Assembly (NCBI GenBank): GCA_903825285.1
Contig: CAIJZY010000060.1
Coordinates: 1-64,000 of the forward strand
DNA: 64,000 bases
Reading direction: 5' to 3'
Origin: an uncultured Opitutia bacterium
Lineage (GTDB): Bacteria > Verrucomicrobiota > Verrucomicrobiia > Opitutales > Opitutaceae
The notes under the pieces were generated by a model, which saw only the letters and a list, made by a program, of their open reading frames with translations, was not told the DNA's origin and made no database searches. Shown here one piece after another: positions 9,302 through 32,911 of this stretch. How positions within the stretch are numbered: position 1 is the stretch's first letter; each line of letters starts with the position of its first letter. The position numbers and the translations under genes were made by a program.

Positions 9302-9377
9302 GGGCTCTTAGCTCAGTTGGTAGAGCGCCTCAATGGCATTGAGGAGGTCACCAGTTCGAACCTGGTAGGGTCCACCA
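9302..9377 (+). tRNA. tRNA-Ala (anticodon GGC)
   Basis: A 76-nt cloverleaf. The acceptor strands GGGCTCT and AGGGTCC pair with two G-T wobbles. The D arm is GCTC/GAGC, the anticodon stem CCTCA/TGAGG has loop ATGGCAT (anticodon GGC), and the T arm is ACCAG-TTCGAAC-CTGGT. The CCA end is encoded. It decodes GCC, a preferred alanine codon in this GC-rich sequence. Confidence 0.97.
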
Positions 9378-9384
9378 CTTTACA

Positions 9385-9407
9385 CCCCGTCGAAAGACGG
9401 GGTTTTT
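9385..9407 (+). terminator. Rho-independent terminator after tRNA-Ala
   Basis: A 7-bp stem CCCCGTC/GACGGGG with a GAAA tetraloop is followed directly by five T residues, 7 bp past the tRNA end. Confidence 0.9.
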
Positions 9408-9478
9408 GCTTTCATCGGCGCCGCACTGCGACGCACGGCGGACTTGAAAAGTGACGGTGAGTGACAGAGGGTTCCGTC

Positions 9479-10348
9479 ATGATTCTTCCGCCGGTTCTGC
9501 GGCGCTGGTGGCCGGTCTGTTTTCTGCTGGCCAGCTTGGCCGCACCGCTTGCCGGCCAGCACACGCTGTTCGCCGAGCGCGACGGAAAATTCTTCCTGGT
9601 GCGCAGGGTGCACGGGAATACCCCGATCATGGAGGTTGAGGGAAAGCAGGTAGTGGCGGACGAGGGACAATACAGCCTGAAGCCGTGCGACGACTACCTG
9701 CCGGTCTTTGTCGAGGTGCGGGACGTGGAAGTGAAGGTCCGCCACCATAACTTGAGGGGCGCCACGATGAACCGCGAGTGGATGTTCCAGGCCACTTGTG
9801 AAACACCCTACGCCCTGGACGATGTTTATGTCGTCTTGGTCATGACGTCGGCGACCAAGGAGGAATTGCTCTTCGTGCAGGAGGTCGGGACCTTGGAACC
9901 GCACCAGTCCAAGTTGGTCGCGGCGAAGCTGCGCCTGGCCTTTGATCTGGGCAAAGGGAAGTACACGCTGCACCTGTTCTCCGGAGGTCAGGAGGTGCTG
10001 CAGTCGAGAATTCCGCCCGCGGAGCGCGAGGCGGCACTGGACCGCATGACGGCCCGGCGCATCGCCGGAGTGCAGGACGCCGCGCCCCAGCTTTTCACCG
10101 GAGCGTCGCCGGAATATCCACGCGAGCTCCTGAAGGAGAAGTCCAAGGGGCAGGCGGTCATTTCCCTTCGCATCGGCCCAAACGGCCAGGTTTACGATGC
10201 GGCCGTCAAGCACGCGACCGATTCGGCCTTCGGCCGATCCGCGCTGGAGGCCGTGCAGCAATGGCGTTTCCTGCCCCGGGTGCAGGGCGGCCGCCCGGTG
10301 GAGACGCGGGTGGATGTGCCGTTCAATTTCACGCCGCCCGCCAAATAG
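9479..10348 (+). CDS. exported protein with C-terminal TonB domain
   Basis: 289 residues. It starts MILPPVLRRWWPVCFLLASL, a signal peptide with likely cleavage after AGQ (about residue 27). The middle part has no recognised domain. The last 80 or so residues (GQAVISLRIGPNGQVYDAAV ... ALEAVQQWRFLP) form a TonB C-terminal domain. Unlike true TonB it has no Pro-rich spacer and seems to be secreted, so it may be a periplasmic protein using the fold for partner binding. The ATG at 9479 is chosen over GTG 9461 because the signal peptide starts there. Confidence 0.7.
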   Translation: MILPPVLRRWWPVCFLLASLAAPLAGQHTLFAERDGKFFLVRRVHGNTPIMEVEGKQVVADEGQYSLKPCDDYLPVFVEVRDVEVKVRHHNLRGATMNREWMFQATCETPYALDDVYVVLVMTSATKEELLFVQEVGTLEPHQSKLVAAKLRLAFDLGKGKYTLHLFSGGQEVLQSRIPPAEREAALDRMTARRIAGVQDAAPQLFTGASPEYPRELLKEKSKGQAVISLRIGPNGQVYDAAVKHATDSAFGRSALEAVQQWRFLPRVQGGRPVETRVDVPFNFTPPAK

Positions 10349-10372
10349 ATATAGGCCGGGCCAGGTGCATGG

Positions 10373-10398
10373 GTGGGAGCGAGCTTGCTCGCTCCCGC
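10373..10398. repeat. REP-like palindrome, family B (single copy)
   Basis: A near-perfect palindrome with a GGGAGCGAGC stem between two convergent genes. It shares GTGGGAGCGAGCTTGCTCGC with the two REPIN-like units at 16561 and 16768. Confidence 0.85.
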
Positions 10399-10433
10399 AG
10401 TCGACCCGTTCACCTAGTTAACCTAATTTCCAC

Positions 10434-11960
10434 TCAGGCCTTCGTCAGCCGGGCCAGCAATGCCGCGCGGGCATCGTCCACGCTCCAGTAGGTCTCCACG
10501 ACCTTGCCGTAGCTGGGCATGACGAACCCCAGCAGGCATTTTCCCAAATAATTCTTGAAGCCAGGCGCGGCCTTGTCCGCGAGATAGGCGCTCTGGGCCC
10601 GCACGAGCGCCGTCATGTCCCGCCGTGCGGCCAGCGCCTGCAGGTCAGCGGTGTGCGCGGCGTAGAGATTCGCTGTCCGGTGCCTATTGTAGAGGAAGGG
10701 TCCAACGAGGTTGAGCAAATGCCGCTGGGAAGCGACCAGGTCGCCCAATCCCTGCTCACCGGCTTTCTCCGTGATGAACGTACACTCGATGGCGAGCAGG
10801 TGTCGCACACCGGCCTCGCCGCTGATGCCGAGGGTGAGCGCAGTGGCCAGCCGCGCGCGCATGGCCGGCGAGACCACCGCGTGGTCCAAGACAAAGCCAC
10901 TGGTGGTCACGGCGAGCTTCTGCAGGACGCGGGCGACCATCGCACGAACCAAGGTGCGAGACGAGGGCTCAAGCTTAAGGCTCACCTGCAGCAACGGCAG
11001 CAGCGTCGCGATCGCATCGTCACCCCGGCCCGCGAGCGCCTGCAGGCCGGCGATGGCGCACGCATGCTGGCCGTAGGAGCGGAACGGGGAGAAGGCGATG
11101 ACCTCGGCATCAAGGCGGGCCGGCGTGAGATCGCCAATTCGGTCAGAACGGTTGAGCTCCTCAATCCAGGCCCGGACCGGCGCGAGATCCGCCCAGTCGG
11201 CCTCGACGGCCTCCCGGTGCCGCGTGAGCCAGGCCGTCCACTCGGCCGGCTTGCTTGCATCAACGAACCGGTCGGTACCCGAGAAAATGCGATCCGGCGC
11301 CTTGAATCCCTTGCCGAGCGGATGATACCGGCCGTAGCGCATGAGCACGTTGAAGCTCGCCTCCGCCTCGGGAAAGCCGGGCGAGAGTTGCTCGAGCGAG
11401 ACCGGGGCCACCAGGCGGGGGTCGTCCACGGCGAGATACGCCAGCAGGGACACGATCACAACGTAGCCCGCGGCAATCCTGGGCCACGAGCGGAGCCGCC
11501 ACACGACGATTGTCACCATCACCGGGAGGACCACGACCAAGCCGAAGAGGTAGCCCAGGTCGGTCAAGGGATTGAAGGACAGGTATGCGGCCAGCGGGTC
11601 CACGATGTCGGCGTAGAATCTCGACAGCACCGCCAGGTCCGCCACCAGCACGGCCGCGAGCATCAGCCCGGCATAGACCAGACTGCGCGAGCGCTGCGCC
11701 CACAGTCGCCAGCCGAACAACGCACAGGCCAGCACCGTGAACGCGAACAGCGCGGCGGCCGGCCCGAGGTTGCCCGGCACCTTGGGCAGCCCGCTCTGCA
11801 TCAACCGAGTGACAAACGAGGCGGAATGGGGGAGCAGCGCCAGCGCGCCCAGGTCGACCAGGAAGGACGCGCCGAGGGCAAGGACCACGCGAGCCACGAC
11901 CCGCAGCAGCGTGTTCCAGGCCGGCAGTGCCGACGGGGCGGGTTGCTCAGCGGGATTCAT
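10434..11960 (-). CDS. unrecognised multi-pass membrane protein
   Basis: 508 residues, function not recognised. About five hydrophobic segments lie in the first 190 residues (around 17-45, 68-88, 92-115, 130-155 and 163-185), followed by a soluble part of about 310 residues. The soluble part is helical and Ala/Leu-rich without motifs I know. The codon pattern and length support a real gene. It is convergent with the TonB-domain gene and divergent from the lipoprotein gene. No neighbour suggests a role. Confidence 0.65.
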   Translation of the reverse strand: MNPAEQPAPSALPAWNTLLRVVARVVLALGASFLVDLGALALLPHSASFVTRLMQSGLPKVPGNLGPAAALFAFTVLACALFGWRLWAQRSRSLVYAGLMLAAVLVADLAVLSRFYADIVDPLAAYLSFNPLTDLGYLFGLVVVLPVMVTIVVWRLRSWPRIAAGYVVIVSLLAYLAVDDPRLVAPVSLEQLSPGFPEAEASFNVLMRYGRYHPLGKGFKAPDRIFSGTDRFVDASKPAEWTAWLTRHREAVEADWADLAPVRAWIEELNRSDRIGDLTPARLDAEVIAFSPFRSYGQHACAIAGLQALAGRGDDAIATLLPLLQVSLKLEPSSRTLVRAMVARVLQKLAVTTSGFVLDHAVVSPAMRARLATALTLGISGEAGVRHLLAIECTFITEKAGEQGLGDLVASQRHLLNLVGPFLYNRHRTANLYAAHTADLQALAARRDMTALVRAQSAYLADKAAPGFKNYLGKCLLGFVMPSYGKVVETYWSVDDARAALLARLTKA

Positions 11961-17904: not shown

Positions 17905-19143
17905 ATGAAGCCCTCCCGCATCGTCATCACCGGCATCGGCCTGACCGCCCCCAACGGCGACTCCCTGGCCCAGTTCCGCCAGAACCTCCTGAATGGCGTC
18001 GCGGGCATCGAGCGGATGGAGATCCGCTACATGGGTTCGCAGCTCGCCGGGGTCTGCCATTACGACCCGCTCCGCTACCAGACGAAGAAGGAGGTCCGCG
18101 TCGGCACGCGCGCCGGCAGCATCAGCATCTACTGCGCCCGCGAGGCGGTGAAGGACAGCGGGCTCGACTGGGCCGCCCAGGCCAAGGACCGCGTCGGCAT
18201 CTACATCGGCTGCACCGAGCACGGGAACGTCGAGACCGAGAACGAAATCTACAACATCTCCCAGTTCGCCTACGACACGAAGTACTGGTCGCACTACCAC
18301 AACCCGCGCACGGTCGCGAACAACCCCGCCGGCGAGGCCTCGCTCAACCTCGGCGTCACGGGTCCCGCCTACACGATCGGCGCCGCCTGCGCCGCGGGCA
18401 ACCTCGGGCTCATCCACGCCACGCAGATGCTGCGCCTCGGCGAGGTGGACCTCGCGATCTGCGGCGGCATCAGCGAGAGCATCCGGACCTTCGGCATCTT
18501 CGCCGGATTCAAGAGCCAGAACGCGCTGGCCACCCACGCGGACCCGCTCAAGGCCAGCCGGCCGTTCGACAAGGCTCGCAATGGCATCGTCGTGTCCGAG
18601 GGTGGCTGTCTCTACACGCTGGAGCGGCTGGAGGATGCCCAGGCCCGCGGCGCGAAGATCTACGCGGAGATCGCCGGTTATCACGTGAATTCCGACGCCA
18701 GCGATTACGTGCTCCCGAACCCGGTCCGCCAGGCCGAATGCATCCGCGCCGCGGTGCGTCACGCCGGGCTCACCCCCCGCGACATCCACATCGTCAACAC
18801 CCACGCCACGGCCACTCCACTGGGCGACATCCAGGAGTGCGAGGCGATCCGCGCGGTCTTCGGCGAGGGCTGTCCCGACACCCATATCAACAACACCAAG
18901 AGCTACATCGGGCACTGCATGGGCGCGGCCGGTGCCCTGGAGCTGGCGGGCAACCTGCCATCGTTCACGGACCTCACCGTGCATCCCACCATCAACGTGG
19001 ACGACCTCGACCCGGCCTGCGCCCTGCCCGGGCTGGTGCTCAATCACCCGCGCAAAGTGGCCAAGGTGGACACCATCCTGAATAACTCCTTTGGCATGCT
19101 TGGGATAAATTCCACGTTGATTGTTAAACGCTTTCTGCCGTAA
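17905..19143 (+). CDS. beta-ketoacyl-ACP synthase, KAS II type
   Basis: 412 residues with a thiolase fold. The Cys-His-His active site is at Cys162 (AACAAG), His300 (NTHATATP) and His337 (YIGHCMGAAG), nearly the spacing of E. coli FabF (163/303/340). It condenses malonyl-ACP with an acyl-ACP. The ATG at 17905 is chosen over an upstream start because homology begins at KPSRIVITGIG. It is the first gene of a co-directional cluster with ACP, dehydratase, enoyl reductase, two flavoproteins and OleA/OleB-like genes, suggesting a dedicated pathway rather than housekeeping fatty-acid synthesis. fabD is elsewhere (32000). Confidence 0.92.
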   Translation: MKPSRIVITGIGLTAPNGDSLAQFRQNLLNGVAGIERMEIRYMGSQLAGVCHYDPLRYQTKKEVRVGTRAGSISIYCAREAVKDSGLDWAAQAKDRVGIYIGCTEHGNVETENEIYNISQFAYDTKYWSHYHNPRTVANNPAGEASLNLGVTGPAYTIGAACAAGNLGLIHATQMLRLGEVDLAICGGISESIRTFGIFAGFKSQNALATHADPLKASRPFDKARNGIVVSEGGCLYTLERLEDAQARGAKIYAEIAGYHVNSDASDYVLPNPVRQAECIRAAVRHAGLTPRDIHIVNTHATATPLGDIQECEAIRAVFGEGCPDTHINNTKSYIGHCMGAAGALELAGNLPSFTDLTVHPTINVDDLDPACALPGLVLNHPRKVAKVDTILNNSFGMLGINSTLIVKRFLP

Positions 19144-19162: not shown

Positions 19163-19426
19163 ATGACCAAAGACGAATGCAAGAAGGTGGTAGTCGATAT
19201 TATCGCCGACATCGCGCCGGATGAAGACCTGTCGAACCTGAAGCCCGAGGTGCGCCTGCGTGACCAGCTGCAGCTCGATTCCATGGACTTTCTCGACATC
19301 GTGATGGAGCTGCGCAAGCGGCACGGCATCGAGGTGCCCGAGGCCGACTACATCCAGCTCGCGTCGTTGGACAGCTGCGCGGAGTACCTGACGCCGAAGT
19401 TCAACGCGCTCGCGGCCAAACGCTGA
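19163..19426 (+). CDS. acyl carrier protein
   Basis: 87 residues. The phosphopantetheine attachment Ser40 lies in LQLDSMDFLDIVMEL, with DSM in place of the usual DSL. It is 19 bp behind the ketoacyl synthase gene and is probably its partner. It would carry the growing chain for this cluster. Confidence 0.92.
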   Translation: MTKDECKKVVVDIIADIAPDEDLSNLKPEVRLRDQLQLDSMDFLDIVMELRKRHGIEVPEADYIQLASLDSCAEYLTPKFNALAAKR

Positions 19427-19570: not shown

Positions 19571-21004
19571 ATGAATTCCCGCACGCACTACGATGTCGCC
19601 ATCATCGGCGCCGGCATGTCCGGACTCGCCGCCGGCATCCGGCTCGCGCACTTCGGCAAGCGCGTCTGCATCTTCGAGCGGCACAACACGGTCGGGGGCC
19701 TGAACAGCTTCTACAGCATCGGCGGACGCAAGTTCGACGTCGGCCTGCACGCGATGACCAACTTCGTCCGCCCGGGCGTGAAGGGCACGCCGCTCGGCAA
19801 GCTGCTGCGCCAGCTCCGCATCGACCGCGACGAGTTCGCCCTCTGCGAGCAGAAGCAGTCGCGGATCGCGTTCGGCGCCCGCGGCGAGACCTCGCTGCGC
19901 TTCACCAATGATTTTGCCGTGCTCGAGTCCGAGGTCGCCACGCGGTTTCCCGCGCAGGTCGACGGCTTCCGCCGGCTCGCGGCGGCGGTCCGGGCGCATG
20001 ACGATGTCGCCCTCGACGCCCAGCCGGTCTCCGCCCGGCAGGTGGTTCGCCAGCACCTCACCGACCCGCTGCTCGAGGACATGCTGTTCTGCCCGGTCAT
20101 GTACTACGGCAGCGCCACGGAGCACGACATGGATTTCGGGCAGTTCACCATCATGTTCAAGGCGCTCTTCTTCGAGGGGTTTGCACGGCCGTTCGACGGC
20201 GTGCGGGTGATCCTGCGCGTGCTGCTGGACAAGTACCGGGCCGCCGGCGGCGAGCGCCGCATGAAGGCAGGCGTGCGGCACATCGTCGCCCAGGCCGGCC
20301 GCGCCACCGCGCTGATCCTCGACCAGGGCGAGGAGATCACCGCCGACCATGTCATCTCCTCCATCGGCGCCCCCGAGACCGCCCGCCTGGTCCAGTCCGG
20401 CCACCATCCGGCGACCGCGATCGCGCCCGGACGCCTCTCGTTCGTCGAGACCATCACCATCCTCGACCGCCAGCCGGCGGAACTCGGGTGGGGGAGCGAC
20501 ACCATCGTGTTCTTCAACGACTCCGCCCGCTTCGACTATGCCTGTCCCAAGGACCAGGTGGACCCGCGCAGCGGCGTGATCTGCATCCCGAACAACTTCG
20601 ACTTTGGCGCCGGGCGCCACCTGCCTGAGGGCATCTTCCGCTGCACCTGCCTCGCGAACTACGAGCGCTGGGCTCATCTGCCCGAGGGCGCCTACCGGGC
20701 CGACAAGCAGCGCTGGTACCAGTCGCTGCAGCGGAGCGCGCAGCGCTTCCTGCCAAAGCTCGCGGATCCCGCCGCGCTGGCGCACGCCACCGTGACGACC
20801 GACATGTTCACCCCCCGCACCATCACGAAGTTCACGGGCCACCTCGGCGGGGCCATCTACGGCGCGGCCCAGAAAAACCGCCAGGGCCGCACCGAGCTGG
20901 CCAATCTCTATCTGTGCGGCACGGATCAGGGCTTTCTGGGCATCGTGGGCGCCATGCTGAGTGGCATTTCCATGGCCAACTACCATATTCTCCAAAAGAG
21001 CTAG
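19571..21004 (+). CDS. FAD-dependent oxidoreductase, phytoene desaturase/isomerase-like
   Basis: 477 residues. The N-terminal dinucleotide motif is VAIIGAGMSGLAAGIRLA with the following Glu in IFERHNTVGG. The C-terminal FAD-closing segment is NLYLCGTDQGFLGIVGAMLSG. The family covers CrtI-type desaturases, carotenoid isomerases and retinol saturases, which dehydrogenate, isomerise or saturate hydrophobic chains. No carotenoid genes are nearby, so an acyl chain made by this cluster is the likelier substrate. The start at 19571 is preceded by a hairpin. Confidence 0.8.
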   Translation: MNSRTHYDVAIIGAGMSGLAAGIRLAHFGKRVCIFERHNTVGGLNSFYSIGGRKFDVGLHAMTNFVRPGVKGTPLGKLLRQLRIDRDEFALCEQKQSRIAFGARGETSLRFTNDFAVLESEVATRFPAQVDGFRRLAAAVRAHDDVALDAQPVSARQVVRQHLTDPLLEDMLFCPVMYYGSATEHDMDFGQFTIMFKALFFEGFARPFDGVRVILRVLLDKYRAAGGERRMKAGVRHIVAQAGRATALILDQGEEITADHVISSIGAPETARLVQSGHHPATAIAPGRLSFVETITILDRQPAELGWGSDTIVFFNDSARFDYACPKDQVDPRSGVICIPNNFDFGAGRHLPEGIFRCTCLANYERWAHLPEGAYRADKQRWYQSLQRSAQRFLPKLADPAALAHATVTTDMFTPRTITKFTGHLGGAIYGAAQKNRQGRTELANLYLCGTDQGFLGIVGAMLSGISMANYHILQKS

Positions 21005-21058: not shown

Positions 21059-22348
21059 ATGAAGACCCCAATCTGCTTTCGCATTTCCACCGGGCTGCTG
21101 CTCGGCCTGACTCTGGCACTGGGAGGACTCACGCCGGCCCGGGCCGCTGAGCCGGTGCCCGTTTCCTCCGGTTATCTCACCCTGACACCGCAGCAGCTCG
21201 AGCAACTGCTTGGCCCGATCGCACTCTACCCCGATGCCCTGGTCGCGCTCATCCTCCCGGCCTCGACGAATCCCACAGAAATCGTACTGGCGGCACGGTA
21301 TGTCAGTTCCGGGGGCGACCCGACGCAGGTGGACCTGCAGCCTTGGAGCGACCCGATGAAGGCGCTCGCCCGGTATCCGGAGGTGGTGAAGTGGATGGAT
21401 GAAAACCTCGAGTGGACCCAGCAGCTCGGGACCGCCTTCCAAAGCCAGCCGGACGCGGTGATGGATGCGATTCAGCGTCTGCGCTCCCGCGCCGTGGCGA
21501 CCGGGGCCCTGGTCAGCACGCCGCAGCAGAAGGTCGTGGTGGAGGACGGCGAGATCGAGATCGTGCCGGTCCAGCCGGACGTCATCTACATTCCCCGTTA
21601 CGACCCCGACGTTGTCTACGACATGCCGCCTCCGGGGTACATCTACCCGTACAGCTCGTACCTTTCGTTCGGTGTCGGCTATCCGGCTGGTGCGTGGCTC
21701 AGCTTCGACTTCGACTGGTATCACCGCACGATCTGGGTGGGCGACCGCCGCCATGACTGGCGTGAGCACCGCGACTGGCGGCACCACGAGACCTCGAACG
21801 CACATGTCAGTCCCAGCAACTCGAACTGGCACGCCTGGCATCCGCCGGCGAACCGTCCGCTGCCGCCCAGCGACCATCGCCACCCCAACTCCGTGATAGA
21901 GCACCCGCGGCCGCTGCCCGGAGTTCCCGTTGCGCCGCGTCCGCCGCACCGCACCGACGAGCCGCGCCAGACGCATCCGGAGACGACTCTCCATCGGCCC
22001 CCGGCGAACATCCCCAGCGTGCAGGCCCCGCCACATTCAGACCGCCCGGCGAGGACGGAGCGTCCGCCGGCGCCCGCGGCGAAGCCGGTGCCGGCACCCG
22101 CCGCGGTCACACCCAACCCGCGGACCGCCCCGGAGCGTCCGGCCTCGGCGCCCAACCCGCCCGCCCGCACCTTCCAGCCGCCCGCGACGCAGCCCGTGCG
22201 GACGCCGCCCGCGCCGGCGAACCTCCCGCCGCCCGCCAGCCGCCCGGCGCCGCAGTACAATCCCCCGGCGCACGTGGTGAATCCCTCGACCGCGACGACG
22301 CCGCCCACCCGGAACAAGGATCCCGACGCCAAGGACAAGCCGAACTGA
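21059..22348 (+). CDS. DUF3300 exported protein
   Basis: 429 residues. The signal peptide is MKTPICFRISTGLLLGLTLA with likely cleavage after ARAA (about 30). The DUF3300 domain (about 45-250) opens with LEQLLGPIALYPDALVALI and has a Tyr/Pro-rich part (PRYDPDVVYDMPPPGYIYP). The last 180 residues are low-complexity and rich in Pro, His, Arg and Thr. The function of DUF3300 is not known to me. It is an envelope protein placed between two flavoprotein genes of the acyl cluster, same strand, with 54- and 78-bp gaps. Confidence 0.82.
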   Translation: MKTPICFRISTGLLLGLTLALGGLTPARAAEPVPVSSGYLTLTPQQLEQLLGPIALYPDALVALILPASTNPTEIVLAARYVSSGGDPTQVDLQPWSDPMKALARYPEVVKWMDENLEWTQQLGTAFQSQPDAVMDAIQRLRSRAVATGALVSTPQQKVVVEDGEIEIVPVQPDVIYIPRYDPDVVYDMPPPGYIYPYSSYLSFGVGYPAGAWLSFDFDWYHRTIWVGDRRHDWREHRDWRHHETSNAHVSPSNSNWHAWHPPANRPLPPSDHRHPNSVIEHPRPLPGVPVAPRPPHRTDEPRQTHPETTLHRPPANIPSVQAPPHSDRPARTERPPAPAAKPVPAPAAVTPNPRTAPERPASAPNPPARTFQPPATQPVRTPPAPANLPPPASRPAPQYNPPAHVVNPSTATTPPTRNKDPDAKDKPN

Positions 22349-22426
22349 GGCGGGCGGGGGTTTTGACAGGGGCGGGTGCAAAACCCCTTGCCCTCGTCCC
22401 GGCGCCGCTTTCACTCTGCCCCTTCC

Positions 22427-23881
22427 ATGGCTTATGACTGGCTCAAAGGGGTCGCCGACGAGTATGACGTGATCGTCATCGGCAGCGGTCTCGGCGGATT
22501 GACCGGCGCGAACGTGCTGGCCAAGGCCGGGCACAAGGTGCTGCTGCTTGAGCACCACTACCAGTTCGGCGGACTCGCCACGTGGTTCACGCGGAAGGGC
22601 GGGCACATCTTTGACATCTCGCTGCACGGCTTCCCGGTCGGGATGATCAAGTCCTGCCGCAAGTACTGGACCAAGGAGATCGCCGACGCGATCGTGCAGC
22701 TGAAGGACATCCGCTTCATCAACCCCCAGATGGACGTCTGGACGACGTTCACGCGCGAGGACTACACGCGGGTGCTCGTGGAGCAGTTCCACCTCGACCG
22801 CGCGCACGTGGAGCAGTTCTACGATCACCTCCGGTCGATGAACTTCTACGACAACAACCCGGAGACCACCGGCGAGATGCTGGATCGGTTCTTCCCGGGC
22901 CGCGACGACGTGAAGCGCCTGCTGATGGAGCCGATCGCCTACGCGAACGGCTCGACGCTCGACGACCCGGCCATCACCTACGGCATCGTCTTCTCCAATT
23001 TCATGGGCTCCGGGGTCTACACCTTCCGCGGCGGCTCCGACCTGCTCATCGAGAAGATGGTCGCGGAGCTCAAGAAGAACGGCGTCGAGGTGCGGAAGAA
23101 GGTCATGGTGGAGCGCATCCTCGTCGAGGAGCGCGACGGCCGGAAAGTCGTGGCCGGCATCGTGGGCGCCAACGGCCGCGTCGTGCGCGCCAAGGCCGTG
23201 CTCTCCAACGCGAACATCAAGAACACCATCTTCCGCCTCGCGGGCGAGGAGAACTTCCCGGCCGACTACGCCGCGGCCGCGCGCGCCGTGCGCATCAATG
23301 CCAGCTCCTGCCAGGTCTACCTCGGCATCCGCCAGGGCGAGACCCTCCCGCACATCGGCGACCTCGTGTTCACCTCGGAAAACCCGCACTTCAGCAGCGA
23401 GGAGCTCACCGACTTCCACACCACCAGCCGCACGTTCTCGGTGTACTACCCCGAGACGCGTCCGGGCTCGGGCCGGTACACGGTCGTGGTCTCGCTGAAC
23501 GGCAAGTATGGCGACTGGCAGGGTCTGGACGAGGCCGCATACGAGCGGGAGAAGGCCCGGCTGGTGGAGGAGTCCATCGCCGCCCTCGAGCGCTACATCC
23601 CCGGCGTGCGCGCCAAGATCGACTGGTCCGAGGCCGCCACGCCGCGCACCATCGAGCGCTACACCACGCATCAGGGCGGAACCTCGTTCGGCACGAAGTT
23701 CGAGGGTCTCAAGGTCTCCATGGACCTGCCCGAGAAGCTCCCCGGCCTCTTCCACGCGGGCTCCGTGGGGATCATCATGTCAGGCTGGCTCGGGACCATC
23801 AATTATGGCGTGATCACCGCCAACAAGGTCGACCAGTATCTCTTCAACTCGCGTCCGCAACCCGCCGCCACCCCCGCATGA
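22427..23881 (+). CDS. second FAD-dependent oxidoreductase, phytoene desaturase/isomerase-like
   Basis: 484 residues. The FAD motif is [21 protein letters not shown] followed by [11 protein letters not shown]. The C-terminus has [22 protein letters not shown]. It is distinct in sequence from the flavoprotein at 19571, so the pair did not arise by recent duplication. Its stop overlaps the dehydratase start by 4 bp (ATGA), which indicates translational coupling and ties it to acyl-chain chemistry. Desaturation, isomerisation or saturation of a polyene or acyl chain are possible. Confidence 0.82.
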
Positions 23882-24330
23882 GCGCCAGCCCCACGGTCCT
23901 CCAACTCATCCCGCACCGTCCGCCGTTCCTCTTTGTGGACGAGATCGTGTCCGAGGGCGCCGACACGCTCGTGGCCAAGCGCACGTTCCATGCGGAGGAG
24001 GATTTCTACAAGGGGCACTACCCGCACGCCCCGATCACGCCCGGCGTGCTGCTGTGCGAGGCGGTGTTCCAGACGGGCGCGCTGCTGATGGCGCGCACCA
24101 TGACCGGGCAGGGGACCGCCGGCGGCGTGCCGCTCCTCGCCAAGATCAGCGACGTGCGCTTCCGGAATCCCGTGTTCCCGGGCGAGACAATCATCATCGA
24201 GGTCAGGAAAAAGGAGTCGCTCGGCGGCTTCACCATGATGAGCGGGAGCGTGAAGAGCGGCGAGAAACGCGTGCTCACGGTGGAGTTCGCGGTTGCCTGG
24301 AAAACCCCGGAGGGAGCGCCGGCATCGTGA
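23878..24330 (+). CDS. 3-hydroxyacyl-ACP dehydratase, FabZ-like
   Basis: 150 residues with a hot-dog fold. His47 in YKGHYPHAP and Glu61 in GVLLCEAV match the His/Glu catalytic pair of FabZ, with the usual 14-residue spacing. It removes water from 3-hydroxyacyl-ACP. It overlaps both the flavoprotein stop and the enoyl reductase start by 4 bp. A cluster-specific ketoreductase (FabG) is not present in the window. Confidence 0.9.
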
Positions 24331-25166
24331 GCGACTTCCTCCAGCTGTCCGGCCAGACCTTCCTCGTGTTCGGCGTCGCCAACCGGAAGAGCGTGGCGTG
24401 GTTTGTGGCGAAGTCCCTCGAGGAGCAGGGCGCCCGCGTGCTCTACAGTGTGCGCTCGGAGGCGCGGCGGAAATCCCTCGAGGCCCAGCTCGCGGGCAAG
24501 CCCGTCTTCCTCTGCGACGTCGAGCTGCCCGGCGCCGTCGAGCGGCTGGCGGCCGAGGTGGCCGCGGCCGGCCACACCGAGCTGCACGGCATCGTGCACT
24601 CGATCGCCTTCGCGAACTACAGCGAGGGCTTCCAGCCGTTCCACGAGACCAAGCGCGCCGACTTCCTCCAGGCCACCGGCGTCTCGGCCTTCTCGCTCGT
24701 GGAGATCGCCCGCGCCTTCAAGCCGCAGCTCGCGCGCCAGGCGTCCGTGGTGACCATCGGCATCTCCTCGCTCCAGGTCACGCCCGACAACTACGGCTAC
24801 ATGGGCCCGATCAAGGCCGCGCTCGAGTCCTGCGTGCGCTTCCTCGCCAAGTCCTTCAGCGCCGACACGGCCGTGCGCTTCAATGCCGTCGGCGCCGGCC
24901 CGCTCAAGACCAGCGCGTCGGCCGGCATCCCGGGCTACCTCGAAAGCTATCTCTACGCGGAGAAGCTCACGTTCCGGAAGAAGAACCTCGAGACCCAGGA
25001 GGTCGCGAACGCCGTGCTGTTCCTGCTCAGCGCGCGCAGCAGCGGCATCAACGGCACCACGCTGGTTGTGGACGCCGGCCTTGGCTCGAACTACTTCGAC
25101 GCGGAGATCATCCGGCTGGCCATGCGGACGCCGGTTCCGCCGGCGCCCACGCCAAAGGCCACATGA
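24327..25166 (+). CDS. enoyl-ACP reductase, FabI-like
   Basis: 279 residues with a GTG start overlapping the dehydratase stop (GTGA). It is an SDR with the FabI-type nucleotide motif FGVANRKSVAW and the catalytic pair Tyr156/Lys163 in NYGYMGPIK, the same residue numbers as in E. coli FabI. GPLKTSASAGIPG follows, as in FabI. It reduces the 2-enoyl bond of ACP-bound chains with NAD(P)H. The ORF track shows it only as part of a longer ORF starting at 24054. Confidence 0.9.
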   Translation: MSDFLQLSGQTFLVFGVANRKSVAWFVAKSLEEQGARVLYSVRSEARRKSLEAQLAGKPVFLCDVELPGAVERLAAEVAAAGHTELHGIVHSIAFANYSEGFQPFHETKRADFLQATGVSAFSLVEIARAFKPQLARQASVVTIGISSLQVTPDNYGYMGPIKAALESCVRFLAKSFSADTAVRFNAVGAGPLKTSASAGIPGYLESYLYAEKLTFRKKNLETQEVANAVLFLLSARSSGINGTTLVVDAGLGSNYFDAEIIRLAMRTPVPPAPTPKAT

Positions 25167-25221: not shown

Positions 25222-26256
25222 ATGAAATTTGAGCACGTGTGCATCGAGTCGCTGGCGGTCGCGCTGCCCGAGGAGGTCTGGACTTCCGCGCAGATCGAGG
25301 ATCGGCTGCGCCCGCTGTACGAGCGCCTGAAGCTGCCCGAGGGCCGGCTGGAGCTCATGACCGGCATCCGCCAGCGGCGGATGTGGCCGGCGGGCACGCG
25401 ACCCTCCGACGCCAGCGCCGCCGCCGGCAAGGCGGTCCTCGCCAAGTCAGGCCTGGCGGCATCCCAGGTCGAGCTGTTCATCCACGCCGCCGTCAGCCGC
25501 GACATGCTGGAGCCCGCCACGGCGTCGTTCGCGCACCGCAAGATCGGGCTGCCCGGCACCGCGCAGATCTTCGATGTCTCCAACGCCTGCCTCGGCTTCC
25601 TCAATTCCCTCACCGTGGCCGCCGGCCTGATCGAGTCGGGCCAGATCCGCTGCGCGCTCGTCGTGGCCGGCGAGAACGGCCGACCGCTAGTCGAGCAGAC
25701 CCTGGCCACGCTGCTCGAGCGCCCGCTGAACCGGAACGAGATCAAGCCGTACTTCGCCAACCTCACCATCGGCTCCGGCGCGGTGGCGGCGGTGGTCTGC
25801 CACGACTCGCTCGTGCGCGGCCGCGCCCACCGGCTGCTCGGCGGTTTCGCCCGCGCGGCCACCCAGCACAGCGAGCTCTGCCAGGGCGACACCCACGGGG
25901 CCGACGCGCTGGCGATGCAGACCGACTCCGAGTCGCTCCTCGTGGCGGGCGTGGCGCTCGCGCAGGAGACCTGGCGGGAATTCATCGGCCCGAACGGCTG
26001 GCCCGGTGCCGGCTTCGACCGCTTCATCTGCCACCAGGTCGGCAGCACGCACCGGCGCAAGCTCTACGAGCAGCTCGGGCTGGACCTCGCAAAGGACTTC
26101 TCAACCTTCGAGACGCTGGGCAACACCGGCTCCGTGGCGCTGCCCGCGACGCTCGCCGCCGCGATCGACGCCGGAGCCGTGCGCGAGGGGAGCCGCGTCG
26201 GATTGCTCGGCATCGGCAGCGGGCTCAACTGCCTCATGCTCGCCCTCGAATGGTGA
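25222..26256 (+). CDS. OleA-like thiolase-fold condensing enzyme
   Basis: 344 residues of the KAS III/OleA group. The active-site residues are Cys123 (DVSNACLGF), His271 (ICHQV) and Asn301 (LGNTGSV). Glu97 in SRDMLEPATAS lies 26 residues before the Cys, the position of the OleA-specific Glu117 relative to Cys143 in Xanthomonas OleA. The C-terminus LLGIGSGLNCLM is also OleA-like. OleA joins two acyl-CoAs head to head to a 2-alkyl-3-ketoacid. The next gene is OleB-like, which supports this call over FabH. The true donor (CoA or ACP) is unknown. Confidence 0.82.
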   Translation: MKFEHVCIESLAVALPEEVWTSAQIEDRLRPLYERLKLPEGRLELMTGIRQRRMWPAGTRPSDASAAAGKAVLAKSGLAASQVELFIHAAVSRDMLEPATASFAHRKIGLPGTAQIFDVSNACLGFLNSLTVAAGLIESGQIRCALVVAGENGRPLVEQTLATLLERPLNRNEIKPYFANLTIGSGAVAAVVCHDSLVRGRAHRLLGGFARAATQHSELCQGDTHGADALAMQTDSESLLVAGVALAQETWREFIGPNGWPGAGFDRFICHQVGSTHRRKLYEQLGLDLAKDFSTFETLGNTGSVALPATLAAAIDAGAVREGSRVGLLGIGSGLNCLMLALEW

Positions 26257-27143
26257 CCGCTGTCCAGCTCCCCGCGGACCTGGCCCGCGAGTATCCGTTT
26301 ACGCCGCAGGCATTCGTGACGCCGCGCGGCGCCCGGATGAGCTACCTCGACGAGGGTCCGCGGTCTGACGAGGCCGTGCTCCTGCTGCACGGCAACCCGA
26401 CCTGGTCGTTTTATTACCGGATTCTGGTGCGAGAACTGGCCCCGAAACTTCGCTGCATCGCCCCCGACCACATCGGCATGGGGCTCTCGGACCAGCCCGA
26501 GGACTACGATTACACGCTCGGCACGCGCATCGCCGACATCGAGGCGCTGGTCGCGTCGCTGGGCCTGCGCCGCATCCACCTCGTGGTGCACGACTGGGGC
26601 GGGGCGATCGGCTTCGGCTTCGCGGCGCGGCATCCCGAGATGATCGGCCGGATCGTCGTGCTGAACACCGCGGCCTTCGCCTCGCCACGCATTCCTTTTC
26701 GCATCGCGCTATGCCGGCTGCCCGGGATCGGGCCGCTGCTGGTGCGCGGGCTCAATGGCTTCGCGTGGCCCGCGACTTGGATGGCGATGCACCGCCGGAG
26801 GCTCACGTCGGCGCAGAAGCGCGGCTACCTGCTGCCGTACGGGTCATGGCAGGCGCGCATCGCGGTGAGCGCGTTTGTCCGCGACATCCCGCTGGCGCCA
26901 TCGCATGTGAGCTGGGCGCCGCTGGCCGAGACCGCCGCCGCGCTGGGAAAATTTCGGGACCGGTCGATGCTGATCGTGTGGGGTGGGCGGGACTTCTGCT
27001 TTGACGACACCTTCCTCGCGCGCTGGCGCGAGCTGTTCCCCGCCGCCAACTGCGTCCGCCTGGACGACGCGGGGCACTACGTGCTCGAGGACGCCGCGGA
27101 GGAAGTGATTCCGCTCATTCGCGACCACCTGCTTGCGCAGTAG
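26250..27143 (+). CDS. OleB-like alpha/beta hydrolase (haloalkane dehalogenase type)
   Basis: 297 residues. HGNPTWSFYYR (Asn49), nucleophile Asp115 with Trp116 in VVHDWGGAIG, Asp248 in WGGRDFCF and His276 in DAGHYVLED are the dehalogenase/OleB triad and pocket residues. OleB is known to decarboxylate beta-lactones to olefins. The ATG at 26250 overlaps the end of the OleA-like gene by 7 bp, so the two are coupled. OleC and OleD genes do not follow; the cluster ends at a family A repeat and the convergent malQ gene. Confidence 0.8.
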   Translation: MVTAVQLPADLAREYPFTPQAFVTPRGARMSYLDEGPRSDEAVLLLHGNPTWSFYYRILVRELAPKLRCIAPDHIGMGLSDQPEDYDYTLGTRIADIEALVASLGLRRIHLVVHDWGGAIGFGFAARHPEMIGRIVVLNTAAFASPRIPFRIALCRLPGIGPLLVRGLNGFAWPATWMAMHRRRLTSAQKRGYLLPYGSWQARIAVSAFVRDIPLAPSHVSWAPLAETAAALGKFRDRSMLIVWGGRDFCFDDTFLARWRELFPAANCVRLDDAGHYVLEDAAEEVIPLIRDHLLAQ

Positions 27144-27309: not shown

Positions 27310-28833
27310 CTATCGGCGATACAGCTCGGCGAGCTCGAGCAGGTATTTCGCGGCGTTGCGCTGCAGCGTGGCGAGGTCATCGGCGCGGTAGCGCCAGGAC
27401 CAGTTGCACTGTGGCTCGCCCGGGGTGTTGAAGCGGGCGCTGGAACCGAGCCCGAGCAGGTCCGGCAGGGGAACGACCGCAAGCGCGCAGACGGAGGCGT
27501 AGGCGGAGCGCAGGAAGTCCCAGTGGATGTCCTGGCCGCTCACGCGGAGGTAGCGGCGCACGTGGTCGCGGGTCTTTTCCGCGGCGGCGGCATACCAGCC
27601 GATCGTCGTGTCGTTGTCGTGGGTGCCGGGGTACACCACGCAGTTCGCGCGCTGGTTGTGCGGCAGATAAAAGTTGTCCGACTCGCCGCCAAACGCGAAC
27701 TGCAGCACCGCCATGCCCGGCAGGCCGGTGGCGTCGCGGAGCGCCAGCACCTCGGGGGTGAGGGTGCCCAGATCCTCGGCGATGAGGCGCGCGTCGGGCA
27801 GCGCGGCGTGGACGGCGCGGAAAAAGTCTAGCCCTGGTCCGTGCACCCAGCGGCCGGGTCGGGCGGTGGTCGACCCAGCCGGAATGGACCAGTAGGATTC
27901 AAAACCGCGGAAATGGTCGATGCGCACGACGTCAAAGAGCGTGAAATTCGCCCGCAGCCGGGCGAGCCACCAGGCGTAGCCGGTCTTGGCGTGAGCCGGC
28001 CAGTCGTAGAGCGGGTTGCCCCAGAGCTGGCCGTCGGCGGAGAAATAGTCCGGCGGACAACCGGCGACGGCGATCGGTCGGGAAGTCTTGGAATCGAGCT
28101 GGAAGAGCGCCGGGTTGGCCCAGACATCGGCGCTGTCCAAGGCGGCGAAGATGGGCGCGTCGCCGATGATGGAGATCTCGCGCTTGGCGGCTTCGGCCCG
28201 GATCAGGGCCCATTGGCCGAAAAAGAGGTATTGGATGAACTCGTAGGCCTCGATGCGCTCGGCGAGCTGCTTGGGCAGGGATGATTTCCGGGCCGCAGCG
28301 GGCGTCCGGGCCGCGGCGGGCCATTCCCACCAGGGCTGGCCACCGAAATGACCCTTCAGGGCGGAGAACAGGGCGTAATCGGGCAACCAGGCCGCGTGCT
28401 GGCGCCGGAACTCGGCAAAGTCGCCGTAGGGCGCCTGGCGACGTCCGCCGGCCACGAACTGCGCATGCGCCCGGAACAGGGCGGGCCACTTGACCTGATA
28501 AAGCTGACCGAAATCCACGCGGTCCGCCGGCAGCGCCTTCAGCGCTGCAACATCCGCCGCAGTAAGCAAACCCGCGCTCACCAGCGCCGCGACATCAATC
28601 AGGTAGGGATTTCCCGCGAACGCGGAGAAACATTGATAGGGTGAATCGCCGTATCCCGTCGGTCCGAGCGGGCAGATCTGCCAAGATTTGAATCCTGCCG
28701 CGGCCAGAAACTCCAGGAAGGCGACCGCATTCTCGTCCAACGAACCAACCCCAAAGCCGCCGGGGAGCGAGGTCGGGTGCAGCAGCACACCCGCATGGCG
28801 ATCCCTCAACCATGAATAGAGCGGCTCAGTCAT
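27310..28833 (-). CDS. malQ: 4-alpha-glucanotransferase
   Basis: 507 residues of GH77 (amylomaltase). Visible motifs are RHAGVLLHPTSLPG and GYGDSPYQCFSAFAGNPYLI near the start, nucleophile Asp in VRIDHFRGFESYW, acid Glu in IAEDLGTL, and THDNDTTIGW. It transfers maltodextrin segments between glucans in maltose or glycogen metabolism. The ATG at 28833 is preferred to the TTG at 28839. A TATATTATG box lies about 20 bp upstream on the minus strand, possibly its -10 element. Confidence 0.94.
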   Translation of the reverse strand: MTEPLYSWLRDRHAGVLLHPTSLPGGFGVGSLDENAVAFLEFLAAAGFKSWQICPLGPTGYGDSPYQCFSAFAGNPYLIDVAALVSAGLLTAADVAALKALPADRVDFGQLYQVKWPALFRAHAQFVAGGRRQAPYGDFAEFRRQHAAWLPDYALFSALKGHFGGQPWWEWPAAARTPAAARKSSLPKQLAERIEAYEFIQYLFFGQWALIRAEAAKREISIIGDAPIFAALDSADVWANPALFQLDSKTSRPIAVAGCPPDYFSADGQLWGNPLYDWPAHAKTGYAWWLARLRANFTLFDVVRIDHFRGFESYWSIPAGSTTARPGRWVHGPGLDFFRAVHAALPDARLIAEDLGTLTPEVLALRDATGLPGMAVLQFAFGGESDNFYLPHNQRANCVVYPGTHDNDTTIGWYAAAAEKTRDHVRRYLRVSGQDIHWDFLRSAYASVCALAVVPLPDLLGLGSSARFNTPGEPQCNWSWRYRADDLATLQRNAAKYLLELAELYRR

Positions 28834-28886
28834 GCACAAAACAACTTAACATAATATACATTGTGCGTGGTTTACCTATGGGAAAG

Positions 28887-30200: not shown

Positions 30201-32000
30201 TCAGTTGTTCTGGAGGACCTTGATGAAGGCATCAGGTGGGATGGACACCTTGCCAATTTGTTTCATCTTCTTTTTGCCCTCTTTCTGCTTGTCGAGGAGC
30301 TTCCGCTTGCGGCTGATGTCGCCGCCATAGCACTTCGCGGTCACGTCCTTGCGCATCTCGCGGACGTTGTCGCGGGCGATGATCTTGCCGCCGATGGCGG
30401 CCTGGATGGCGACCTTGAACATCTGCGGCGGGATGATCTCCGCGAGCTTCTCGCAGAGCTGGCGGCCCTTCCCGTCGGCCTTCTCGCGGTGCACGATGCA
30501 GGCGAAGGCATCCACCGGGTCGCCATTGATGAGGATGTCCATCTTCACGAGGTCCGAGACGATGTACTCGCCGAGCTCGTAGTCCATCGAGCCGTAGCCA
30601 TGCGTGATGCTCTTCAGGCGGTCGTTGAAATCGACCAGGATCTCGTTCAGCGGCAGGATGCAGTGCAGCATCACCCGGTTCATGTCCAGGGTGTCGGTGT
30701 GCTCACACACGCCGCGCTTCTCCATGATCAGGGAGAGAATGTCGCCCATCCCGTCGTTGGGGATGATGAGCGAGGCCTTGATGGTGGGCTCGCGGATCTC
30801 GAGGATGGTGCCGGGGTCCGGCATGTTCACCGGGTTGTCGACCTCCATCAGCTCGCCGCCGTGCTTGATCACATGGTAGATCACGCTCGGGTACGTGGAG
30901 ATGATCTCCACGTCGTGCTCGCGGCGGATGCGCTCCTGGATGATCTCCATGTGGAGCAGGCCGAGGAAGCCGCAACGGAAGCCGAAGCCGAGCGCCAGCG
31001 AGCTTTCCGAGGCGTAGACGAAGGCCGAGTCGTTCAGGCGCAGGCGGCCCAGCGCCGCCTTCAGCTTCTCGTAGTCGTCGCTCTCCAGCGGATAGAGTCC
31101 GCAGAACACGAGCGGCCGCACCTCCTTGTAGCCGGGCAGCATGGCCGTCGCCGGGCGCGCGGCGTGCGTGATGGTGTCGCCGGTCTTCACGTCGGAGGTG
31201 TTCTTGATGCTGGAGACGACGTAACCGACATCGCCGGCGCCGAGCGATGCGATCTTGGTCATCTTCGGCATGAACACGCCGACCTCCTTCACCTCGGCCT
31301 TCTGGCCGTTGCTCATCAGCATCATCATCTCGTTTGCCTTGATCGTGCCGGAGAACACCCGGACGTAGGCGATGCAGCCGCGGTAGGAATCGTACAGCGA
31401 GTCGAAGACCAGCGCGCGCAGCTGCGGGTAGTCCGCCCAGCGCGGCGGCGGCACGCGGCTGACCACGGCCTCGAGGATGTCCACGATGCCGATGCCGGAC
31501 TTGCCGCTGGCGAGGATGGCCTCCTCGGCCGGGATCGAGAGGATGTCCTCCAGCTGGCGCGTGCAGAGCTCGAGGTTGGCGCTCGGGAGATCGATCTTGT
31601 TGATGACCGGGATGACCTTGAGCTTCTGGCCGAACGCGAGGTGCGCGTTCGCCACGGTCTGGGCCTCGACGCCCTGCGCGGCGTCGATCAGCAGCACCGC
31701 GCCCTCGCAGGCCGCGAGGCTGCGCGAGACCTCGTAGGAGAAGTCCACGTGGCCCGGCGTGTCCATGAGGTTGAGCTTGTAGTCATGCCCATCCTTCGCG
31801 CGGTACGTCATCGTCACCGGATGCGACTTGATCGTGATGCCGCGCTCCTTCTCGAGGTCCATCGAGTCGAGGTGCTGGTCGGTCATGACCCGGTGCGCGA
31901 CCGTGTTCGTGAACTCGAGCAGGCGGTCAGACAGCGTGGTCTTGCCGTGGTCGACGTGCGCGATGATGCAAAAGTTGCGGGTGTATTTGGGCGACATCAT
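30201..32000 (-). CDS. lepA: elongation factor 4 (LepA GTPase)
   Basis: 599 residues, the normal LepA length. The P-loop AHVDHGKTT, switch segment RGITIKSH, DTPGHVDF and NKIDL are all present, along with the LepA-specific C-terminus ending in KKKMKQIGKVSIPPDAFIKVL. It is a ribosome-associated GTPase. Its ATG overlaps the stop of fabD by one base (TGATG), indicating coupled translation; ATG 31997 is an alternative. Confidence 0.97.
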   Translation of the reverse strand: MMSPKYTRNFCIIAHVDHGKTTLSDRLLEFTNTVAHRVMTDQHLDSMDLEKERGITIKSHPVTMTYRAKDGHDYKLNLMDTPGHVDFSYEVSRSLAACEGAVLLIDAAQGVEAQTVANAHLAFGQKLKVIPVINKIDLPSANLELCTRQLEDILSIPAEEAILASGKSGIGIVDILEAVVSRVPPPRWADYPQLRALVFDSLYDSYRGCIAYVRVFSGTIKANEMMMLMSNGQKAEVKEVGVFMPKMTKIASLGAGDVGYVVSSIKNTSDVKTGDTITHAARPATAMLPGYKEVRPLVFCGLYPLESDDYEKLKAALGRLRLNDSAFVYASESSLALGFGFRCGFLGLLHMEIIQERIRREHDVEIISTYPSVIYHVIKHGGELMEVDNPVNMPDPGTILEIREPTIKASLIIPNDGMGDILSLIMEKRGVCEHTDTLDMNRVMLHCILPLNEILVDFNDRLKSITHGYGSMDYELGEYIVSDLVKMDILINGDPVDAFACIVHREKADGKGRQLCEKLAEIIPPQMFKVAIQAAIGGKIIARDNVREMRKDVTAKCYGGDISRKRKLLDKQKEGKKKMKQIGKVSIPPDAFIKVLQNN

Positions 32001-32911
32001 CAGGCGGCCACGTCGGCGTATTCGGCGAGGCTTTTCACCACCCAGCTTTTCTCCGTGCGCCGGGCCAGGCCCGCCAGCACGCCACCCGGTCCCAGTTCCC
32101 AGAACTCGGTCGCCCCGGCGGCCGCCGCGGACCGCATGCAGTCCTCCCAGAGCACCGACGACACGACCTGCTTCACCAGCGCCGCCTTGAGGTCCGCCGG
32201 CTCGCGCACGGCCTGGCCGGTGGTGTTCGTGAAGACGGTGAATCGCGGCGCGGCGAAGGCCACGCCCTCGAGGTGCGCGGCGAAGGCGGCCCGGGCGGGC
32301 TCCATCAGTCGCGAGTGATAGGCGCCGGCGACATTGAGGGGGATGATCTTCTTGATGCCCCGCTCCTTGGCGGCGGCGACCGCGGCGTCGATGCGGGACT
32401 TCTCGCCCGAAACGATGATCTGGCCGGGGGCGTTGAAATTGGCTGCCTCGATGTCGAACTCGCGGCAGAGTTCCGACACCTTGCCGCGCTCCTCACCCAT
32501 GATGGCGGCCATGCCGCCGGTGGTCTGCTCGCACGCCTGCTGCATGAGCCGGCCGCGCTCGGCCACGACGCGGAGCCCGGTCGAAAAATCAAACACTCCG
32601 GCCGCGCAGTAGGCCGTCACCTCGCCGAGACTAAGCCCCAGCGCGAAGTGCGGCTCGCCCGCCGGCAGCTTGCCCAGCTCCCGCAACGCGGCCAGCAGCG
32701 CCATCCCGTGCACGAACAGCGCCGGCTGGCAGACCTTCGTCTGCGTCAGCTCCGTCTCGGGACCCTCAAAGCACACCTTGGCCAGATCCCAGCCCAGCAC
32801 CGCGTTCGCCTCGTCGTACAGCGCCCGGGCCGCCGGCGACTGCTCCGCAAGCGTGCGTCCCATGCCGACTTTTTGGGCGCCCTGACCGGAAAAAATAAGT
32901 GCCAATGCCAT
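32000..32911 (-). CDS. fabD: malonyl-CoA:ACP transacylase
   Basis: 303 residues. FSGQGAQKVGMG opens the protein, the nucleophile elbow is GLSLGE (Ser94) with Leu where most FabD proteins have His (GHSLGE), and the substrate Arg lies in AERGRLMQ. The catalytic His is in AGAYHSRLM. It loads malonyl groups onto ACP and would serve both housekeeping synthesis and the cluster at 17905. It is an unusual operon partner for lepA. Confidence 0.93.
   Translation of the reverse strand: MALALIFSGQGAQKVGMGRTLAEQSPAARALYDEANAVLGWDLAKVCFEGPETELTQTKVCQPALFVHGMALLAALRELGKLPAGEPHFALGLSLGEVTAYCAAGVFDFSTGLRVVAERGRLMQQACEQTTGGMAAIMGEERGKVSELCREFDIEAANFNAPGQIIVSGEKSRIDAAVAAAKERGIKKIIPLNVAGAYHSRLMEPARAAFAAHLEGVAFAAPRFTVFTNTTGQAVREPADLKAALVKQVVSSVLWEDCMRSAAAAGATEFWELGPGGVLAGLARRTEKSWVVKSLAEYADVAA

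Follow-up and report, generated by a model that had tools for sequence, protein, structure and literature searches.

A split pathway for head-to-head hydrocarbons, attached to a dissociated acyl synthase with two CrtI-like flavoenzymes, is predicted in an uncultured Opitutaceae bacterium

We analysed a stretch of 64,000 nucleotides (the window) from the genome of an uncultured Opitutaceae bacterium. The window appears to carry the opening half of a pathway for head-to-head hydrocarbons which is complete in the genome but split between loci, and the product of which would be polyunsaturated and similar to C31:9; we put the probability of this reading at roughly 0.7. Putative oleA and oleB genes stand at the end of a gene run which also encodes a small set of fatty acid synthase enzymes and two CrtI-like FAD oxidoreductases (Table 1). 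The membership of these module genes in the Ole pathway is well supported, and from it and from comparison with other bacteria we infer the polyunsaturated product and the chemistry of the CrtI-like proteins.

Table 1 Features of the window, with their positions, strands and the evidence for each assignment.
Feature	Position	Strand	Length and frame	Evidence
FabF-type ketosynthase (KS)	17905-19143	+		NCBIfam FabF 315.6 bits, below equivalog cut-off; Cys-His-His motifs intact
Acyl carrier protein (ACP), DSMD phosphopantetheine site	19163-19426	+		Pfam PP-binding, E = 5.9e-09
CrtIa, CrtI-like FAD oxidoreductase	19571-21004	+		Pfam Amino_oxidase; AlphaFold model; co-occurrence with OleA
DUF3300 protein	21059-22348	+		Pfam DUF3300
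CrtIb, CrtI-like FAD oxidoreductase, carotenoid-isomerase-like by profile	22430-23881	+		NCBIfam carot_isom; AlphaFold model
FabZ-type 3-hydroxyacyl-ACP dehydratase	23878-24330	+		NCBIfam FabZ 101 bits, below equivalog cut-off
FabI-type enoyl-ACP reductase, GTG start	24327-25166	+		NCBIfam FabI models 168 bits, below equivalog cut-offs
OleA, predicted head-to-head acyl-CoA condensing thiolase	25222-26256	+	344 aa, open frame	NF006720; best PDB match; tree
OleB, predicted beta-lactone decarboxylase, haloalkane-dehalogenase-like family	26250-27143	+	297 aa, open frame	Catalytic residues; Desulfobacterota gene order
malQ, 4-alpha-glucanotransferase by sequence	27310-28839	-		Gene after oleB in place of oleC/oleD

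A first-pass annotation had assigned the gene at 25222 to OleA, citing E97 and Cys123, and our comparisons agreed with this. The protein scored 446.9 bits against PRK09258/NF006720 (cut-off 285) vs 89.9 bits against the FabH model (NCBIfam profiles), its best PDB match was the OleA of Xanthomonas (3row, E = 7e-64), and residues E97, C123, H271 and N301 were aligned with those of the Xanthomonas enzyme. The motif published as a signature of OleA, EPxx[AS]x(14,18)DxxNACL (PMC7158056), was present in this protein and in all 38 of the relatives which were extracted, and was missing in the genome's own FabH (contig C3), which has Leu at the position of E97. The same annotation had raised the possibility that the protein might group with FabH in a tree; this did not hold, as the own FabH formed a very long branch far outside every OleA. 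FabH identity was ruled out by the profile scores and by this tree position. On the evidence of its sequence the gene encodes a true OleA, with the non-decarboxylative condensation of two acyl-CoAs as its predicted activity.

The catalytic residues previously listed for OleB (Asn49, Asp115, Asp248 and His276), along with W116, were invariant in 20 of 20 aligned sequences, and the Asp-His-Asp triad and the conserved Asn and Trp of the haloalkane-dehalogenase-like family are in place. The 7 bp overlap reported between oleA and oleB was also found (ATGGTGA), and an overlap of this length is likewise present in clusters from Desulfobacterota, in which oleB directly follows oleA and precedes oleC-oleD. 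Judged by these features the gene encodes an OleB-type hydrolase, predicted to decarboxylate cis-beta-lactones. As had been stated earlier, neither oleC nor oleD adjoins oleAB in the window; oleB is followed instead by malQ, on the opposite strand. Further downstream, approximately 5 kb from oleB and also on the opposite strand to it, a gene for a FabD-like malonyl transferase (32000-32911) adjoins lepA.

The genome of the window (3.74 Mb, 62 contigs, 96% complete) was checked by profile search. The genome-wide search for oleC and oleD, which the first-pass annotation had recommended, found oleC and a probable oleD as neighbours on the minus strand of contig C38 (L011:8326-9324 and 9321-10979), with oleD starting within the last codons of oleC. 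The OleC protein scored 644.7 bits against PRK09274/NF006754, above the cut-off of 478, and 534 bits against the olefin beta-lactone synthetase model NF045786, below its equivalog cut-off of 900. The OleD-like reductase, the gene for which comes directly after oleC, belongs to the 3Beta_HSD fold family, and its best NCBIfam model was NF042422 (2-alkyl-3-oxoalkanoate reductase OleD; 398.5 bits, below the cut-off of 580). According to these matches OleC and a probable OleD are encoded alongside OleA and OleB, giving what appear to be all four Ole proteins in one genome, and the option that OleC and OleD are missing was ruled out. Within a set of 57 genomes (own genome and relatives), OleA was over the cut-off in 51 and OleC in 51. 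In closed relatives oleA and oleC are unlinked (0.72 vs 3.83 Mb in G030 and 4.30 vs 1.06 Mb in G014), and separate oleAB and oleCD loci are regularly found, so far as gene positions indicate, as the rule in the family.

It had been proposed that either OleC and OleD are encoded elsewhere or this OleB handles a different intermediate, with a ketone or another long-chain product formed without OleC and OleD. The first of these alternatives was correct. The second, which would fit the position of oleC and oleD away from oleAB in the window, seems scarcely credible: it found no support, given that the genome encodes OleA, OleC and a probable OleD and that OleA is accompanied by OleC in the phylum as a whole, and in Desulfobacterota the genes form one cluster. 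Since oleC and oleD lie on contig C38 and the split between oleAB and oleC is the family rule, no new substrate is needed for OleB.

The contiguous form of the cluster was found in Desulfobacterota, the phylum of a Thermodesulfobacteriota MAG, from which 395 genomes were sampled. Homologs of CrtIb were present in 22 of these genomes, where 21 scored 680-776 bits and the remaining one was on a short fragment; the orthologs were 53-60% identical to the CrtIb of the window. From the neighbourhoods which were fetched, five genomes contain KS-ACP-CrtIa-CrtIb-FabZ-FabI-OleA-OleB-OleC-OleD as a contiguous set and three contain KS-ACP-CrtIa-OleA-OleB-OleC-OleD-CrtIb-FabZ-FabI. The clusters which were read ORF by ORF, one of which was scanned against NCBIfam, have a gene for a FabG-type ketoreductase between CrtIb and FabZ and therefore encode a full elongation cycle; no FabG was found within the cluster of the window. 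In approximately half of the CrtIb-bearing Desulfobacterota genomes there was no complete ole set within the fetched stretch, and a wider look around the other CrtIb loci added one partial set only (OleB-OleC-OleD approximately 8 kb away in G601). One genome of this phylum (G330) has three CrtIb-like genes (L254, L256 and L257), two of which are outside the cluster.

These contiguous clusters indicate that the window holds the split form of a cluster which is complete elsewhere. The lack of oleC and oleD in the window is a rearrangement, because both genes adjoin the same locus in Desulfobacterota. The first-pass annotation had suggested looking for oleC and oleD beside an equivalent locus in close relatives: they were indeed found adjoining one, but in a distant phylum.

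The presence upstream of oleAB of an ACP, a ketosynthase, a dehydratase and an enoyl reductase, as first described, was supported by NCBIfam and Pfam matches. The motifs AACAAG, THATAT and KSYIGH of the KS are intact, as are the DSMD site of the ACP, the catalytic motifs GHYP and PGVLLCE of FabZ and the Y-x6-K at 156 of FabI. The earlier hint that this discrete fatty acid cluster matters was justified, and it is here that the interest of the locus lies; the same gene run also contains CrtIa and CrtIb, which had not been mentioned. The gene order galE / KS-ACP-CrtIa-CrtIb-FabZ-FabI-OleA-OleB is kept in the genus and in much of the family, and the KS ortholog adjoins ACP/CrtIa in both Opitutaceae and Desulfobacterota. 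The DUF3300 gene is found between CrtIa and CrtIb only in the genus of the window, other genera having other genes or none at this position, and it is probably an insertion which lies outside the pathway.

CrtIa and CrtIb resemble carotenoid enzymes in fold: the AlphaFold models (pLDDT 89.5 for CrtIa and 88.5 for CrtIb) both had gamma-carotenoid desaturase 4rep as their best PDB fold, with TM values of 0.73 and 0.77, respectively. CrtIb, for which there is a possible in-frame GTG start upstream at 22376, had carot_isom as its best NCBIfam match (117 bits vs a cut-off of 587) and is not a member of that family, and CrtIa scored 65 bits vs a cut-off of 587 on the carotenoid enzyme model. Neither protein was above any curated cut-off for carotenoid desaturases or isomerases (CrtI, CrtD, CrtISO).

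To describe the co-occurrence of CrtIa, CrtIb, OleA and OleC we used profile and homolog searches of a sample of 195 Verrucomicrobiota genomes. CrtIa was found in 50 genomes, OleA in 49, CrtIb in 48 and OleC over the cut-off in 48. CrtIa and OleA were found together in 47 genomes and were both absent from 143, with CrtIa alone in 3 and OleA alone in 2 (Fisher: P = 6e-39, treating genomes as independent and ignoring shared ancestry). At least 12 families have members with all four proteins, and these include genomes in which the genes are not adjacent. The five genomes which break the CrtIa/OleA pattern are G156, G196, G231, G100 and G173. G100 and G173 (L259 and L260; family f41) have OleA and OleC without a CrtI-like partner and their OleA is on a separate long branch; their Ole pathway is probably fed by other chains. 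Two KS-like genes are close to oleA in G100. G156 (L262), which is 99% complete, has CrtIa, CrtIb and an adjacent OleC-OleD pair, with no OleA over the threshold.

The shared fold might suggest that the CrtI-like enzymes serve carotenoid or other terpenoid metabolism and neighbour the ole genes through coincidence or shared regulation. We consider this very unlikely, as in two phyla these genes stand between those for ACP and FabZ, they are kept or lost together with OleA and OleC even in genomes in which oleA is not their neighbour, and their scores on the carotenoid enzyme profiles are far below the cut-offs.

Several known systems resemble the locus in part. As in the oleABCD pathway of Xanthomonas, Shewanella and Micrococcus, there are four enzymes with the family signatures, and the same order of chemistry is expected; here, however, oleAB and oleCD are in two loci and oleAB is attached to a type II synthase and two CrtI-like flavoenzymes. 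In pfa-ole clusters a secondary acyl synthase which is thought to supply polyunsaturated chains is likewise genetically coupled to ole genes. Geobacter bemidjiensis, which has such a cluster, makes C31:9, and the C31:9 of other bacteria is attributed to the joining of Pfa chains by Ole enzymes (PMC4882568). The synthase described here differs in being small and dissociated and in having CrtI-like proteins in addition, and no PfaA-type megasynthase was found above the TIGR02813 cut-off in the own genome and relatives (0 of 57), which ruled out a Pfa synthase as the source of the chains.

Desulfotalea psychrophila makes C31:8 and C31:9 with no known PUFA pathway, and has phytoene-dehydrogenase-like genes (DP2405, DP2406 and DP1860) in FASII clusters (Rattray et al. 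2009, PMC2649909). CrtI-like flavoenzymes were proposed there for oxygen-free synthesis of polyunsaturated hydrocarbons, and by their published description they may correspond to CrtIa and CrtIb; in contrast to the present locus, that paper does not mention any ole genes. The candidate ladderane cluster of anammox bacteria (FabZ, two KS and a CrtI-like protein) brings together genes of similar kinds, but its CrtI-like protein is approximately 25% identical and on a separate deep branch, which ruled out close kinship, and there is no radical SAM gene in the cluster of the window. The best PDB match of the window's FabZ was an anammox FabZ (7qv0), barely better than other FabZ structures. The CrtI-like proteins of anammox bacteria made no lycopene and no new lipids in E. 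coli (PMC4790861). Across the anammox loci L129-L147, the order FabZ-KS-KS-CrtI-like was the same wherever the contig was long enough, and represents a conserved core of the ladderane candidates.

In the pathway which we propose, a dedicated type II synthase (KS, ACP, FabZ and FabI, with a ketoreductase from elsewhere) would build special acyl chains on its own ACP, and CrtIa and CrtIb would add or isomerise double bonds without oxygen. OleA would join two acyl chains to a beta-keto acid, which OleD (contig C38) would reduce; OleC (contig C38) would close the beta-lactone and OleB, in the window, would remove CO2 to give a cis-olefin, following the published order of reactions (PMC7158056). 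The polyunsaturated chains are suggested because Desulfotalea makes C31:8 and C31:9, PfaA was absent above the cut-off from all 57 genomes, Pfa and Ole enzymes are credited with C31:9 elsewhere and the two additional flavoenzymes call for a function. Their synthesis would probably be oxygen-independent. Against this reading stand the distant kinship of the anammox CrtI-like protein and the negative result of its kind in E. coli, the lack of a FabG in the window's cluster, the CrtIb-bearing Desulfobacterota genomes with no complete ole set in the fetched stretch and the five Verrucomicrobiota exceptions.

An unlikely version of the same Ole pathway would have the synthase make ordinary saturated, branched or monounsaturated chains, with the CrtI-like enzymes in a minor role such as the introduction of one double bond. 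The classical Ole products of Xanthomonas and Micrococcus do have few double bonds, which favours this version, but it is hard for it to account for a dedicated set of KS, ACP, dehydratase and enoyl reductase with two conserved flavoenzymes, and the presence of both CrtI genes follows that of oleA across 12 or more families. We keep to polyunsaturated chains as the preferred reading. More specifically, the odds seem about even that the module is the type II counterpart of the Pfa megasynthase: a dissociated synthase which makes polyunsaturated acyl chains without oxygen, in which the CrtI-like pair desaturates or isomerises ACP-bound chains during elongation and which, in Verrucomicrobiota and Desulfobacterota, is reserved for providing OleA with the chains of C31:9-like hydrocarbons.

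The presence of ole genes in Opitutae has already been reported (PMC5673642, PMC7064751), Verrucomicrobia are among the phyla with producers (PMC7158056) and the idea that CrtI-like enzymes take part in a FASII route to polyunsaturated hydrocarbons was put forward in 2009 (PMC2649909). In a literature search which mostly lay outside subscription journals, we found no paper which joins this idea with ole genes or describes the KS-ACP-CrtI-CrtI-FabZ-FabI-ole set. It should also be noted that surveys which demand oleBCD within 5 kb of oleA miss split pathways such as this one. Polyunsaturated C31 hydrocarbons occur in bacteria for which no PUFA synthase is known, and the source of their chains has been a question since the work on Desulfotalea in 2009, and the set of ten genes (the acyl synthase, two CrtI-like proteins and oleABCD), as a conserved unit in two phyla, names candidate genes for it. 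If our reading is true, this would be a second oxygen-free bacterial route to polyunsaturated chains, and CrtI-like flavoenzymes would gain a role on fatty chains which would be relevant to the unsolved ladderane pathway.
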